Positions 31,208 to 38,011 of a stretch of DNA of 64,000 nucleotides are shown piece after piece. Position 1 is the stretch's first letter, and each line of letters opens with the position of its first letter. Source of the stretch: Oscillospiraceae bacterium (GTDB lineage Bacteria > Bacillota > Clostridia > Oscillospirales > Ruminococcaceae); assembly GCA_009780025.1 (NCBI GenBank), contig WRAV01000003.1, forward strand, positions 28,438-92,437, in the 5' to 3' direction. The translations under genes were made by a program, and so were the position numbers. Under the pieces are notes generated by a model. The model was not told where the DNA came from. It worked only from the letters and a program-made list of their open reading frames with translations, and made no database searches.

Positions 31208-31294
31208 GCGGCTGTGGTGGAATCGGCAGACACGCTAGCTTGAGGGGCTAGTGGGAGCAATCTCGTGCAAGTTCAAGTCTTGTCAGCCGCACCA
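31208..31294 (+). tRNA. tRNA-Leu (anticodon GAG)
   Basis: GCGGCTGTGGTGGAATCGGCAGACACGCTAGCTTGAGGGGCTAG...GTTCAAGTCTTGTCAGCCGCACCA; class II variable arm, encoded CCA. Confidence 0.95.
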
Positions 31295-31302
31295 AATCAT
31301 TT

Positions 31303-31351
31303 AAATCCGAACTATTCGCCGATCTTGAAAATCGGCGAATAGTTCGGATTT
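31303..31351 (+). terminator. tRNA terminator, perfect 21-bp stem
   Basis: AAATCCGAACTATTCGCCGAT-CTTGAAA-ATCGGCGAATAGTTCGGATTT then ATCTTTT. Confidence 0.9.
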
Positions 31352-31394
31352 ATCTTTTATCCAGTTAATTATATGCCCCACACTCATCATACAT

Positions 31395-31428
31395 CAAGTC
31401 GCCCTGCTCACATGAGCAGGGCGACTTG
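31395..31428. repeat. Perfect 16-bp inverted repeat with 2-nt spacer
   Basis: CAAGTCGCCCTGCTCA-CA-TGAGCAGGGCGACTTG followed by AATTTTCT. Confidence 0.9.
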
Positions 31429-31467
31429 AATTTTCTGACGCACATCTCCACCGAAGCATAAAAATTT

Positions 31468-31554: not shown

Positions 31555-32493
31555 ATGAATAAACTTTTGGCATTAGTAGTAATCGTAACGCTTGTACTTG
31601 CAGCACTTGTCGGATGCGCCCAAGGTGGCCAGGCCTCTCAAGACAACCCAACCACGCAAGGGACAGAGAGCCCGCAGTCTGTTGTGGACCAAGACGCTTC
31701 AAACTTTAACACCAACAGAGAGATCACGGTTATATCCCGTGAAAGTGGCTCGGGCACCAGAGGTGCGTTCATTGAGCTGACTGGCGTCGAAGTTCGGGGC
31801 GAGGACGGTACCGTAACTGATATGACAAGCCTGGAAGCCACCATCGGCAACGGCACCAACGCGATCATGACCAACGTCTCGAGTGACGTCTATGCAATCG
31901 GATACATATCCACCGGTTCTGTTAACGATACGATAAGGCCCCTCAGTGTTGACGGTGTAGCTCCTACTGCAGAGAATATTCTGGCCGGAAGCTATGTAAT
32001 CGCCCGCCCTTTTATCATTGTCACCGCTGAAGATATTGACCCGCTGACGAGAGAATTTATCGACTTTATTATGTCTGAGCTGGGACAGGAAATAGTCGCA
32101 GAACGCTACATCCCCGCTGTACTTAATGCTCCCGCTTTCCAGAGCGCTGGCCACAGCGGCACTATCGTAATCGGCGGTTCCACTTCGGTAGCTCCTGTCA
32201 TGGAGCGTTTGAGCGAAGGCTACCGCGCCCTCAATCCCAATGCTAATATTGAAGTTCACGTCAGCGGTTCGGGCGCAGGCATTACTGGTACCATTGACGG
32301 GCTTCTTGACATAGGCATGTCCAGCCGTGAAATTAGAGATTCCGAAATGGAGCAGCTTGGACAACAAATTACTATCTGCATGGACGGAATCGCGGTAATC
32401 GTAAATAACAATAATCCAATCACCGATATAACAAGCGAGCAGGTTCGTCAAGTTTTTACCGGGGAACTTAGCAGATGGGCTGATATTCAGTAA
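31555..32493 (+). CDS. pstS: Phosphate ABC transporter substrate-binding protein, circularly permuted domain order
   Basis: Lipoprotein signal ...LAALVGCAQG; SRESGSGTRGAF...AIGYISTGS...YIPA precedes GTIVIGGSTSVAPVMERL...MDGIAVIVNNNNPITDITSEQVRQVFTGELSRWADIQ*. Confidence 0.92.
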   Translation: MNKLLALVVIVTLVLAALVGCAQGGQASQDNPTTQGTESPQSVVDQDASNFNTNREITVISRESGSGTRGAFIELTGVEVRGEDGTVTDMTSLEATIGNGTNAIMTNVSSDVYAIGYISTGSVNDTIRPLSVDGVAPTAENILAGSYVIARPFIIVTAEDIDPLTREFIDFIMSELGQEIVAERYIPAVLNAPAFQSAGHSGTIVIGGSTSVAPVMERLSEGYRALNPNANIEVHVSGSGAGITGTIDGLLDIGMSSREIRDSEMEQLGQQITICMDGIAVIVNNNNPITDITSEQVRQVFTGELSRWADIQ

Positions 32494-32510: not shown

Positions 32511-33383
32511 ATGAGTAAGCATGCAAGGGAAACGATTATGAAATACGTATTTATGCTGGCAGCAACCGCCTCTATTATGGCGGTGCTGCTAATATGCGTA
32601 TTTTTGTTTTGGAACGGCATACCGGCAATGGCCGAGATTGGCCCGTTCAACTTTCTACTTGGGCGCGTGTGGGCACCCGCCGATACCCCACAACTTTTCG
32701 GGATACTGCCCATGGTACTCGGCAGCATCTACGTTACGGCAGGTGCTATCATTGTAGGTGTACCAATTGGCATACTCACCGCGATATTTATGGCAAAATT
32801 TTGTTCGCCGACTTTGTATAAGATACTGAAGCCTGCGACCCAGTTGCTTGCAGGAATACCGTCGATTGTCTACGGATTCTTTGGGCTGGTTGTGATTGTA
32901 CCTTTTGTGCGTGAGGTTTTCGGAGAGCATTTTGGCGGCAGCGGGCAGAGCATCTTCACAGCATCTATTCTGCTTGGCATTATGATTTTACCTACCATTA
33001 TCGGTGTGAGCGAGGCGGCTATCCGCGCTGTTCCCGATAGCTATTACGAAGCTTCGGTGGCAATGGGGGCCAGCCATGAGCGCAGCGTGTTTTGGGCTGT
33101 TGTACCCGCCGCCAGCTCAGGGATTATGACCAGCGTAATTCTCGGTATCGGGCGGGCGATAGGTGAAACAATGGCCGTTATTTTGGTCGCGGGCAATCAA
33201 GCGCGAATGCCGACCGGCCTATTCAGAGGTGCACGTACATTAACGGCTAACATCGTCATGGAAATGGGATACGCCGCCGAGCTGCACCGCGAAGCGCTGA
33301 TTGCGACAGGCGTTGTACTGTTTGTTTTTATCCTGATTATAAACCTACTGTTTAACCTGTTGAGAGGGAGGAAGAAATACTGA
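32511..33383 (+). CDS. pstC: Phosphate ABC transporter permease PstC
   Basis: MTSVILGIGRAIGETMAVILVAGN; position between pstS and pstA. Confidence 0.95.
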   Translation: MSKHARETIMKYVFMLAATASIMAVLLICVFLFWNGIPAMAEIGPFNFLLGRVWAPADTPQLFGILPMVLGSIYVTAGAIIVGVPIGILTAIFMAKFCSPTLYKILKPATQLLAGIPSIVYGFFGLVVIVPFVREVFGEHFGGSGQSIFTASILLGIMILPTIIGVSEAAIRAVPDSYYEASVAMGASHERSVFWAVVPAASSGIMTSVILGIGRAIGETMAVILVAGNQARMPTGLFRGARTLTANIVMEMGYAAELHREALIATGVVLFVFILIINLLFNLLRGRKKY

Positions 33384-34249
33384 TGAACGCAATTAACACG
33401 CTTACATGGAAAGACAGGCTGCATGGGTACAAAAAGAACCCTGCTTCGGCAGTCTTATTCCTTCTTGTCGCGCTTGCGGCGCTTCTCACTTTCGCTGTTC
33501 TATTATTTCTCATCAGCTATATACTTGCCCGCGGCCTGCCTCACTTGACACCTAGCCTGTTTGAATGGGAACATAACACCACCAATGTTTCGATGATGCC
33601 GGCGATTATCAACACAATCATCATGGTGATTCTCGGGCTGATCTTGGCTGGGCCGCTGGGAATATTCAGTGCCATCTTTCTTGTGGAGTACGCGGGTACC
33701 GGCAGCAAGCTAATCAAGGTTGTGCGCATTACCACTGAGACGCTCTCGGGTATACCGTCCATCGTTTTCGGGCTTTTTGGTATGTTGTTCTTTGTCATGG
33801 CGCTGGGCTGGGGATTCTCTATGCTGGCAGGCGCGTTTACGCTGTCTATTATGATATTGCCGCTAATCATGCGTACAACCGAGGAAGCGCTGCTCTCGGT
33901 ACCGGTTTCTTACCGGGAGGGCAGTTACGCTCTTGGGGCAGGCAAGCTGCGCACCATATTCCGCATAGTGTTGCCCAGTGCTATGCCGGGTGTCTTAGCG
34001 GGCGTCATACTTGGTATGGGTAGGGTTGTGGGCGAGACCGCGGCGCTCATGTTTACAGCCGGTACAATAGCCCAGATAACGCCCAATGTTATGGACTCCG
34101 GCAGGACGCTCGCGGTACATATGTATGTTCTGGCCAGCGAGGGTTTCCATGTCAACCAAGCTTCAGCTACCGGCGTGGTGCTTTTGGTTATGGTTATAAT
34201 CATAAACTGGCTAAGCGGATTTGTCGCAAAGAAATTTACCAAATCGTAA
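33383..34249 (+). CDS. pstA: Phosphate ABC transporter permease PstA
   Basis: AMPGVLAGVILGMGRVVGETAALMFTAGT. Confidence 0.95.
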   Translation: MNAINTLTWKDRLHGYKKNPASAVLFLLVALAALLTFAVLLFLISYILARGLPHLTPSLFEWEHNTTNVSMMPAIINTIIMVILGLILAGPLGIFSAIFLVEYAGTGSKLIKVVRITTETLSGIPSIVFGLFGMLFFVMALGWGFSMLAGAFTLSIMILPLIMRTTEEALLSVPVSYREGSYALGAGKLRTIFRIVLPSAMPGVLAGVILGMGRVVGETAALMFTAGTIAQITPNVMDSGRTLAVHMYVLASEGFHVNQASATGVVLLVMVIIINWLSGFVAKKFTKS

Positions 34250-34261
34250 AGAGGTATCGAA

Positions 34262-35011
34262 ATGGATAAAATTATGCTTCGCAATGTAGAGTTGTGGTAT
34301 AATGACTTCAAGGCGCTCAAAAATGTCTCAATGAATATACAGGCAGGGGCCATCACGGCTTTTATCGGACCCTCCGGCTGCGGCAAATCTACACTGCTCA
34401 AGAGCTTGAACCGTATGAACGACCTTGTGGAAGGCTGCAAGATTATCGGAGAATTTCTGCTGGACGGTGAGAATATTTACGGTGAGATTGACATCAATTT
34501 GCTCCGCAAACGAGTGGGTATGGTGTTCCAAAAGCCTAACCCGTTCCCCATGAGCATCTACGATAATATCGCTTACGGCCCGAGGACACACGGCATAAAG
34601 TCAAAATATAAGCTGGACGAAATTGTTGAGAAGGCTCTGCAAGATGCAGTGATTTGGGATGAAGTTAAGGACAGGCTGAAAAAGAGTGCTCTTTCACTTT
34701 CCGGCGGGCAGCAGCAGCGACTGTGCATTGCGCGGGCACTGTCAGTTGCTCCCGAGGTATTGCTTATGGATGAACCGACATCAGCGCTTGACCCGATTTC
34801 CACGTCAAAGATAGAAGATTTGGTCACTGAATTAAAAAAGCAGTATACAGTCGTGATCGTAACCCACAACATGCAGCAGGCCACGAGAATCTCTGATAAG
34901 ACTGCGTTTTTCCTGCTTGGCGAAATGGTCGAGTACGGCGAAAGTGACCGGATTTTCTCTATGCCTAAAGACAAACGCACCGAGGACTACATCACGGGGA
35001 GGTTTGGTTAA
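34262..35011 (+). CDS. pstB: Phosphate ABC transporter ATP-binding protein PstB
   Basis: [43 protein letters not shown]...[15 protein letters not shown]. Confidence 0.97.
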
Positions 35012-35658
35012 TGCGCAGCAAATTTGAAGAGCAGCTCGCAGAACTTAACGACATGCTTGTTGAGATGGGCACGCTGATTGAAACCGCTATCGCGCTGGCA
35101 ACACAGGCGCTTAGAGAGCAAGATATAGAGCTTGCGAAAAAGGCCATTGCATATGAGCAGGAAGTTGACCAAAAAGAAAAGGACATAGAGGCGCTCTGCT
35201 TGAAATTGCTCCTGCGTCAGCAGCCGGTAGCACGGGATTTGCGCCTGATCTCTGCGGCAATGAAAATGATTACAGACATGGAGCGCATTGGCGATCAAGC
35301 TGCCGATATCGCCGAAATTACAATCATGCTTGCCGGAACACCATATATCAAAAAACTGGAACATATCCCGCTAATGGCGCAGGCCACGGTGAAAATGGTA
35401 ACAGACAGTATCGACGCTTTCGTGAAAAACGATTTAGAGCTTGCCCATGCGGTAATAAAATCTGATGATGTGGTTGACGATTTGTTCGGCAAGGTTAGAT
35501 CTGAATTGATAGCGCTTATCCACGCCGACATCACAAACGGTGAGCAGGCGCTGGATTTTTTGATGATTGCCAAATACTTTGAACGTATCGGTGACCATGC
35601 GGTGAACATCGCCGAGTGGGTTGTGTTTTCCATCACGGGCAGGAATGCAAAGGGGTAA
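35011..35658 (+). CDS. phoU: Phosphate signalling protein PhoU
   Basis: [34 protein letters not shown]...DLRLISAAMKMITDMERIGDQAADIAEI. Confidence 0.95.
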   Translation: MRSKFEEQLAELNDMLVEMGTLIETAIALATQALREQDIELAKKAIAYEQEVDQKEKDIEALCLKLLLRQQPVARDLRLISAAMKMITDMERIGDQAADIAEITIMLAGTPYIKKLEHIPLMAQATVKMVTDSIDAFVKNDLELAHAVIKSDDVVDDLFGKVRSELIALIHADITNGEQALDFLMIAKYFERIGDHAVNIAEWVVFSITGRNAKG

Positions 35659-35663
35659 CGACC

Positions 35664-36341
35664 ATGCGGAAAATCTATATTGTTGAGGATGACGAAGACA
35701 TCCGCGAGATTGTGATGTACGCACTCCGCTCTGCCGGATTTGAGGCAGCGGATTTTGAACGTGGCGAAGATTTTTTTGCAGCGCTGGACACCGGCCTGCC
35801 CGCTCTCGTTTTGCTCGATATTATGCTGCCGGGCGATGATGGGTTGTCTATACTCAAAAAGCTGCGAAATGCCTCGCAGACCAAGACACTGCCCATTATC
35901 ATGCTCACAGCAAAAGGCAGTGAGCTCGACAAAGTAAAAGGGTTGGATTTGGGCGCGGATGACTACATATCCAAGCCTTTTGGCGTCATGGAGCTAATTT
36001 CTCGTGTTAATGCTATGTTGCGAAGAAGCGGGACAACCTCCCGATCTAACGATCAAATAGAATACGGCGGCATCCTGCTCGACAATACCCGCCGCGCTGT
36101 AAGCATAAACGATGAAGGGGTAACGCTGACTTATAAAGAGTATGAGCTGCTCCATTATCTTATCCTCAACAGAGGGATGGCACTGGATAGGGAGAAAATC
36201 ATGGAAACGATTTGGGGATATGATTTTGTGGGAGAAAGCCGCACACTTGATATGCATATCCGATCGCTGCGACAAAAGCTGGGCCCGGCGGGTGGGCATA
36301 TCAAAACAATTCGCAACGTCGGTTATAAACTGGGAGAGTGA
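35664..36341 (+). CDS. phoB: PhoB-like OmpR-family response regulator
   Basis: MRKIYIVEDDEDIREIVMYALRSAGFEA...LDIMLPGDDGLSIL...; C-terminal winged helix. Confidence 0.9.
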   Translation: MRKIYIVEDDEDIREIVMYALRSAGFEAADFERGEDFFAALDTGLPALVLLDIMLPGDDGLSILKKLRNASQTKTLPIIMLTAKGSELDKVKGLDLGADDYISKPFGVMELISRVNAMLRRSGTTSRSNDQIEYGGILLDNTRRAVSINDEGVTLTYKEYELLHYLILNRGMALDREKIMETIWGYDFVGESRTLDMHIRSLRQKLGPAGGHIKTIRNVGYKLGE

Positions 36342-38011
36342 GCCGCTTGAAAAAACGCATTTACATTAGCTTTTTTGCTCTTGTTTTGCTATGTGCGTTG
36401 CTGCTGTCGGCATCGGTCAGCGGCATTATTTATAACGCGATAAGAAATAGAGAAATGGACGCTATCAGAGACAGGGCGAACCTCGCCGCCAACCTTTTGA
36501 ACAATTCCGTGCGGGCTGAGGGTTTTTCCGATTTTAACAGCCATGACTCCGATGCCGCGCGAATCACTATTATTGCACCGGATGGCACAGTGTTGCTCGA
36601 CAACAAGGCGCCTGCTGTGTTTCTCGAAGATCACAGCGACAGAGATGAGTTTAGGCAAGCTATGCGAACCGGGCGCGGCGAAGCGATACGCTATTCCGTC
36701 ACATTGGGCGCGGAAACTTATTACTATGCAATACGGCTTGACGACGGCAATATACTGCGCGTTTCAAAAACAATGGATCGCATATCCGGGGTATTTACCG
36801 CTGTGCTTCCCACTATTGTTGGTGTGGCAGCGCTCATCCTACTGTTGTCAATTGTAGTTGCACGCAGGCTTGTAAAAAACATCATTGACCCGTTAAACAA
36901 TATCAATTTTGATAGTGATGATACAAATGTATATGATGAACTCTTGCCCTATGTGAAAAAGATCGACCAGCAAAAAAGTGAGATCGCAAGTCAAATCGTA
37001 ATGCTAAAAAATCGTGCCGATACCATTGAGACAATAACCGGCAACATGAAAGAGGGGCTTATCTTAATTGACAAAGCCGGTATCGTTCTGGTTGCCAACA
37101 AAAGCGCATCGACTGCTTTTGCCCAAAAAGATATGCCTGGGAAAAGCATTCGGCATGTCTGCCGCGATATAGATTTTTCTAGCGGAGTAAAAGAATGTTT
37201 GTCCGGTGTAAACTCTGAGATTGTGTTTGTGCGTGGGGATAAAGTATACAGCGTATATTTCAGCTCTGTATACGATGGCGGGGAGCTCAATGGCGGTGTG
37301 ATTTTTTTGCACGACATTTCAGAAAAGCATGAAGCGGAAAAGCAGCGTAGGGAGTTTTCGGCAAATGTATCCCATGAACTTAAAACGCCACTGACTACGA
37401 TTTCTGCACTAAGTGAGATGATTGAAAACGGTATGGCCAAAGAAGGCGATATAAAAGTATTCGCCGGAAAAATAACCCTGCAGTCACAGCGGCTTATAAA
37501 CATTATAGAGGACATTATCAAACTTTCCGAATTTGACGAGGACAAAATATTTGCGCAGTTCACAGAGTTCGATTTATATGATTTGGCGCTATCCGTGGTG
37601 GAAATTTTGCGCGAAAAAGCGGATGAAAAGCATATAGCCATAGAGATAATCGGTGAGCACTTTCCGATGACAGCTAACAAGCAAATGATTGACGAGCTTT
37701 TGTATAACCTGATTGATAACGCAATAAAATACAATATGGATAACGGCTCTGTCACGATTATGCTGTCAAAAGAAAATGAGCTTCTTAAAATCGCTGTAGC
37801 TGATACTGGTATAGGAATTTCGCCAGAAGATCAAAGTCATGTGTTTGAAAGGTTTTATCGGGCGGACAAATCCCGTTCAAAGAAAACAGGTGGCACAGGG
37901 CTTGGCTTGTCTATCGTTAAGCATATCGTAGGACATCACGGCGGCAAAGTTGCGCTTACAAGCGATTCAAATATGGGCACAACGGTGGAATGTTGGTTTG
38001 TGGGTGGGTAG
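36338..38011 (+). CDS. phoR: PhoR-like sensor histidine kinase
   Basis: FSANVSHELKTPLTTISALSEMIENG...DNAIKYNMDNGSV...VFERFYRADKSRSKKTGGTGLGLSIVKHIV. Confidence 0.92.
   Translation: MSRLKKRIYISFFALVLLCALLLSASVSGIIYNAIRNREMDAIRDRANLAANLLNNSVRAEGFSDFNSHDSDAARITIIAPDGTVLLDNKAPAVFLEDHSDRDEFRQAMRTGRGEAIRYSVTLGAETYYYAIRLDDGNILRVSKTMDRISGVFTAVLPTIVGVAALILLLSIVVARRLVKNIIDPLNNINFDSDDTNVYDELLPYVKKIDQQKSEIASQIVMLKNRADTIETITGNMKEGLILIDKAGIVLVANKSASTAFAQKDMPGKSIRHVCRDIDFSSGVKECLSGVNSEIVFVRGDKVYSVYFSSVYDGGELNGGVIFLHDISEKHEAEKQRREFSANVSHELKTPLTTISALSEMIENGMAKEGDIKVFAGKITLQSQRLINIIEDIIKLSEFDEDKIFAQFTEFDLYDLALSVVEILREKADEKHIAIEIIGEHFPMTANKQMIDELLYNLIDNAIKYNMDNGSVTIMLSKENELLKIAVADTGIGISPEDQSHVFERFYRADKSRSKKTGGTGLGLSIVKHIVGHHGGKVALTSDSNMGTTVECWFVGG

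Follow-up and report, generated by a model that had tools for sequence, protein, structure and literature searches.

Is a phosphate-binding protein whose two halves are encoded in reverse order the product of a broken or misassembled gene, or a natural circular permutation that still serves a phosphate importer? An open reading frame (ORF) within a 64,000-nucleotide stretch of Oscillospiraceae bacterium contig WRAV01000003.1 (the window) raises this question, as an earlier note, made from the sequence, had described its product as a circularly permuted PstS. Here we show the half order, intactness, operon, predicted fold and ligand-residue conservation of this protein, and its co-inheritance with PstC. 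We consider it very probable that this protein serves a Pst ABC importer as its phosphate-binding lipoprotein, and that its type II substrate-binding fold has undergone a natural circular permutation.

Half order of PstS and the operon it heads

The ORF lies exactly where it had first been placed (31555-32493, plus strand). It starts with ATG, is preceded by a GGAGG at ~31543, and encodes 312 amino acids in an intact reading frame. The protein begins MNKLLALVVIVTLVLAALVGC, a lipoprotein signal with the lipobox LVGC, and thus carries the signal peptide and lipobox cysteine (Cys21) of an exported protein. The gene heads an intact pstSCAB-phoU-phoBR operon encoded on one strand, with pstC, pstA, pstB and phoU alongside (Table 1). 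As the listed ORF of the response regulator overlaps phoU, its real start is probably an ATG 3′ of the listed one.

Table 1. Features of the permuted pstS gene and of the pst operon, in window coordinates
Feature	Position	Strand	Basis
pstS, circularly permuted phosphate-binding lipoprotein, 312 aa	31555..32493	+	profiles, structure matches, model
lipoprotein signal peptide, lipobox LVGC, lipidated Cys21	31555..31617	+	sequence; Cys21 invariant across 59 permuted homologues
tether of low complexity and predicted disorder, residues 22-54	31618..31716	+	pLDDT mostly <60
canonical C-terminal half, residues 55-187, with R62/S66/G67/T68 of phosphate site	31717..32115	+	matches 4q8r 118-243
new linker, residues 188-200, old C-terminus to old N-terminus	32116..32154	+	10-15 aa in 109/110 homologues
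canonical N-terminal half, residues 201-312, with S209/S211, S239, S257 of phosphate site	32155..32490	+	matches 4q8r 4-113
pstC permease	32511..33383	+	BPD_transp_1; operon position; PstC trees
pstA permease	33383..34249	+	BPD_transp_1
pstB ATPase	34262..35011	+	ABC_tran
phoU	35011..35658	+	PhoU domain x2
PhoB/PhoP-type response regulator	35616..36341	+	Response_reg + Trans_reg_C
PhoR-type histidine kinase	36338..38011	+	HisKA + HATPase_c

Upstream of pstS is a tRNA-Leu gene (31208-31294), and between the two are two strong hairpins that resemble intrinsic terminators (31304-31350 and 31394-31429) and possibly insulate the pst operon from upstream. A promoter and terminator scan of the window gave nothing decisive, with about as many terminators as in shuffled sequence, and a scan for a PHO box upstream of pstS (four TTAACA-like repeats with 11-bp spacing) did no better than the window background.

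Two profiles, Pfam PF12849 and NCBIfam TIGR02136, each match the window protein twice, with the two matched stretches in exchanged order. The stronger one (residues 196-310 for PF12849, 201-311 for TIGR02136) corresponds to the first half of the profile yet is located C-terminally; with both halves matched, TIGR02136 reaches 194 bits (E 2.6e-57), identifying the protein as a PstS homologue. When aligned with canonical PstS from C. perfringens (4q8r), residues 202-311 matched chain residues 4-113 (E about 1e-23) and residues 55-187 matched chain residues 118-243 (E about 1e-21). The alignment with PstS2 of S. pneumoniae (SP_2084; 4H1X) was single and colinear over residues 50-311 (E 1.4e-54). 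As 4q8r aligns in two pieces and 4H1X in one, the halves are transposed with respect to canonical PstS, and a solved structure shows the same arrangement. The C-terminal half therefore precedes the N-terminal half, as the note had read it, in place of the canonical N-to-C order. The pieces matched in 4q8r are complementary, and both halves are complete.

Predicted fold and position of the cut

An AlphaFold2 model of the window PstS, built on 59 permuted homologues, had a pLDDT of 90.5 (about 97 across the folded part). In a Foldseek search of the PDB, the top match was 4H1X (E 4e-35, TM 0.97 on the target, 1.2 Å over 259 columns), while the canonical structures 4gd5 and 4q8r matched over 132 columns only, corresponding to one half (TM 0.41-0.42). 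The shorter matches are expected, because Foldseek, on which our fold comparison rests, is a sequential aligner that here meets a permutation. The predicted structure thus overlays a permuted crystal structure, and the failure to superpose that the note had named as refuting its claim did not occur. Its reading of a circular permutation, not a truncation, agrees with the sequence, the model and many relatives elsewhere.

The position of the cut differs from that first proposed. By predicted secondary structure, the chain is broken between helix 294-302 and strand 58-62. We placed this break on X. citri PhoX through the phosphate ligands, with R62, G67 and T68 corresponding to Arg159, Gly164 and Thr165 of PhoX (PMC5439949). 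In PhoX, domain II comprises residues 101-251 and the hinge strand residues 93-108 (PMC5439949). The break falls at about PhoX residues 145-153, within domain II and well beyond the hinge strand, where the earlier note had located it. The cut would therefore lie inside lobe II, an assignment made from predicted secondary structure and the published domain limits of another PstS rather than from coordinates. The further statement that both lobes are complete, with only their order swapped, holds for the halves, which are complete. However, the halves are not the lobes, as each contributes to both. Two long predicted strands, 150-157 and 270-283, would be the lobe crossings, judging from type II topology.

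In the arrangement we favor, the chain would begin at the lobe II strand bearing the RxxxSGT phosphate loop (ITVISRESGSGTR), traverse the remainder of lobe II and then lobe I's C-terminal helices, and pass through a ~13-residue linker to the old N-terminal lobe I strand (TIVIGGSTS). It would then re-enter lobe II and stop at the helix that precedes the former junction (FTGELSRWADIQ). The linker that joins the old ends, 10-15 residues long in 109 of 110 permuted homologues, is predicted to close the former ends in lobe I. Canonical PstS of the ptsS_2 subfamily (TIGR02136; 4GD5 and 4Q8R, Clostridium perfringens) has homologous halves, the same ligand loops and the same operon, but the opposite half order, with its N-terminus and tether in lobe I. 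In the permuted protein, both free ends, and hence the lipid tether, would have moved to lobe II.

Distribution and history of the permuted form

Counting a genome as permuted if one colinear match spans both halves, we found permuted PstS in about 20 of 61 genomes sampled from the family, 32 of 147 from the order and 11 of 300 from the phylum. In a named collection, the best 80 loci were all colinear over both halves; most were from Clostridia, such as Gemmiger, Coprococcus, Dorea and Intestinimonas, and some from Coriobacteria and Treponema. The guess that this order is present in other Clostridia was therefore correct. In the initial set of loci, 110 proteins were of C-N order and 30 of N-C order, and pstC was directly 3′ of permuted pstS in 99 of the 110 (about 90% of those first collected). 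The permuted form is thus widespread in pst operons, for which the note had suggested a survey. One Anaerotignum genome contains two permuted pstS genes in tandem (L077:319-2327, plus strand). In Treponema saccharophilum, permuted PstS is encoded with pstCAB-phoU on the complete 382-kb plasmid pTS2 (L207:5932-8514, plus strand). We infer cross-phylum transfer of permuted pst, and the pTS2 operon possibly came from Clostridia. Permuted pst loci were also present in metagenome-assembled genomes (MAGs) labelled Helicobacteraceae (L043 and L045), whose PstC sequences cluster with that of a Treponema MAG; these records may be mis-binned or mislabelled contigs.

The distribution bears on whether the gene could be a local artefact, either a misassembly or the fused fragments of two broken pstS genes, as might be suspected because the window's source is a 72-contig draft genome. 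However, the same half order is found in all 59 aligned homologues, in a protein from another assembly (L033) that is 61% identical to the window's, in 79 further named loci, in the crystal structure 4H1X and on the complete T. saccharophilum plasmid; the linker length is also nearly constant. Since the halves are complete, the frame is intact and 59 homologues share the order, it is not due to chance or assembly. The independent genomes and 4H1X already refute a local artefact, to which we give next to no credence; we found no assembly rearrangement, which had been named beforehand as grounds for abandoning the permutation.

How many times the permutation arose was examined with loci gathered by PstS similarity to the window protein. 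For the PstS tree, permuted sequences were rotated back and aligned with canonical PstS. A single branch (support 90/83), recovered in 92% of bootstrap trees, set all 37 permuted rows, including 4H1X, apart from the rest, and this joint tree needs one order change. In a tree of PstC, which bears no trace of permutation, the 32 rows adjoining permuted PstS formed one clade (100/100), as did 38 permuted-locus rows in a second tree with treponemal, Coriobacterial and other records added (100/99); 4H1X was placed in the PstS tree only. PstC of canonical loci from the same taxonomic family fell outside the permuted-locus clade, while the window PstS and its PstC group with those of other permuted loci. 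Because PstC of permuted loci form one clade, permuted PstS and its permease have been inherited together. Were the junction easily made, several independent permutations in different Pst lineages could be imagined, and both the fused and unfused tandem PstS found elsewhere in the phylum and a tree of the PstS N-half alone, which needs three changes and does not recover a single origin, are consistent with this. However, single-half trees are too short to resolve PstS history, and all permuted PstS resemble one another at the junction and linker. Together with the single change in the joint tree and the single PstC clade in both PstC trees, this renders several origins improbable. The PstS tree gives one origin moderate support, and we hold that, as judged from these sequences, the permutation arose once within the sampled set, alongside a distinct PstC clade. 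The permuted form now occurs across Clostridia, in a streptococcus and in some treponemes.

Duplication, fusion and loss of the outer halves is the classical route to circular permutation. In the phylum, tandem genes, fused double PstS and permuted proteins are all visible, showing that this route was available. One genome (L202) carries two adjacent canonical pstS genes. Fused double PstS proteins with the order N-C-N-C (531-544 aa) are encoded in two genomes of one genus, g262 (L123:1102-2733 and L206:2132-3724, both minus strand). The L123 protein has 544 aa, and its adjoining gene is pstC; the L206/L171 protein is 74% identical to it along its length. Permuted proteins align colinearly to the middle of double PstS, whose internal C-N order is that of permuted PstS, but the double proteins have four halves and a canonical placement in the tree. 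As they sit among the canonical rows and are not basal to the permuted group, we rejected them as direct ancestors of the permuted form and regard them as parallels. A candidate third fused tandem PstS (G508) was also rejected, as it consists of two adjacent separate ORFs. The permuted lineage most likely arose through tandem pstS duplication and in-frame fusion, followed by loss of the outer halves.

Phosphate binding, related systems and significance

Residues R62, S66, G67, T68, S209, S211 and S257 are invariant in the 59 permuted proteins, and S239 is nearly so. These residues, drawn from both lobes, correspond by position to the PhoX site. In S. pneumoniae, genetics identified Pst2, whose binding protein is PstS2, as active in phosphate import and under PhoU2 regulation (PMC4913102), and 4H1X is the structure of PstS2. 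As the ligand residues are kept and the homologous Pst2 imports phosphate, the window PstS is expected, from homology and Pst2 genetics, to bind phosphate and pass it to PstCA like an ordinary PstS. With fold and phosphate residues retained, binding would occur through the usual Venus-flytrap closure, and phosphate would be delivered to PstCA in a step powered by PstB. One residue, S257 at the position of PhoX Asp80, could be taken to indicate a permuted binding protein with a changed ligand, such as a phosphate ester or other oxyanion, rather than a phosphate-binding PstS. However, the same serine (IGMASRD) is present in canonical C. perfringens 4q8r and is therefore a subfamily trait not tied to permutation. 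In addition, the remaining site residues are conserved, the operon includes pstCAB, phoU and a PhoB/PhoR-like pair, and Pst2 takes up phosphate (PMC4913102). We regard a changed ligand as very unlikely and phosphate as the expected substrate.

The window PstS belongs to the 4H1X-like permuted group, being colinear over the whole mature protein. S. pneumoniae PstS2 has the same order and a pst operon context, but is only about 40% identical and comes from a different organism. Binding proteins are seldom circularly permuted in nature; here, the permutation has been inherited with an entire transporter lineage and occurs widely in gut Clostridia. Another case is TpMglB-2 (Tp0684) of Treponema pallidum, a natural permuted type I glucose-binding protein, whose authors proposed that the permutation may relate to membrane tethering (PMC4990184). 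It too is a naturally permuted, tethered binding protein, of treponemes and Gram-positives, and ligand binding is retained in TpMglB-2 (PMC4990184). However, it differs in its type I fold, sugar ligand and cut site (a fourth hinge crossing), and the event was unrelated. By homology and model, the window protein is a type II PstS, not a type Ic protein (type I fold with a permuted N lobe). Permuted PstS is the type II counterpart of TpMglB-2, cut elsewhere.

A permuted homologue had already been crystallised, as 4H1X was released in 2012. The papers searched name the S. pneumoniae protein "PstS 2" and nowhere mention a permutation, and we found no description of permuted PstS in the open literature searched (subscription journals were outside its scope). 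The novelty claimed by the earlier note thus stands as to description, but is smaller than supposed given the structure. Permuted PstS is real, widespread, evolutionarily old and present in a crystal structure, yet apparently undescribed as such. There is also a gap in annotation. All eight permuted proteins scored, from the window, Clostridia, Coriobacteria and Treponema, fell below the curated TIGR02136 cut-off of 206.6 bits, with the seven others at 177-204 bits; for the window protein this is expected, since a single profile has to match it as two pieces in exchanged order. Among canonical proteins, one scored 228 bits and a divergent canonical PstS from contig C21 of the window's genome scored 177. 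RefSeq calls two permuted proteins merely "substrate-binding domain-containing protein." Through this cut-off and such vague names, phosphate-binding genes are overlooked.

The C21 protein belongs to a second, divergent pstS-pstC-pstA-pstB operon of canonical order (L203:2236-5663, minus strand). Therefore, both kinds of Pst coexist in this genome, as in the pneumococcus. A speculative reading, which we consider rather unlikely, is that permuted PstS marks a distinct Pst lineage in which the shift of the free ends and lipid anchor from lobe I to lobe II altered presentation to the permease, PstC and probably PstA co-adapted, and the permuted and canonical binding proteins are not freely interchangeable. 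If so, the pneumococcus would retain both Pst1 and Pst2, one of them canonical and the other permuted, because of this limited interchangeability, and the window's genome, with its canonical pst operon beside the permuted one, would be the same case. With both systems in one cell, these bacteria offer a natural setting in which to ask if an ABC importer is sensitive to where the lipid anchor and chain ends are placed.
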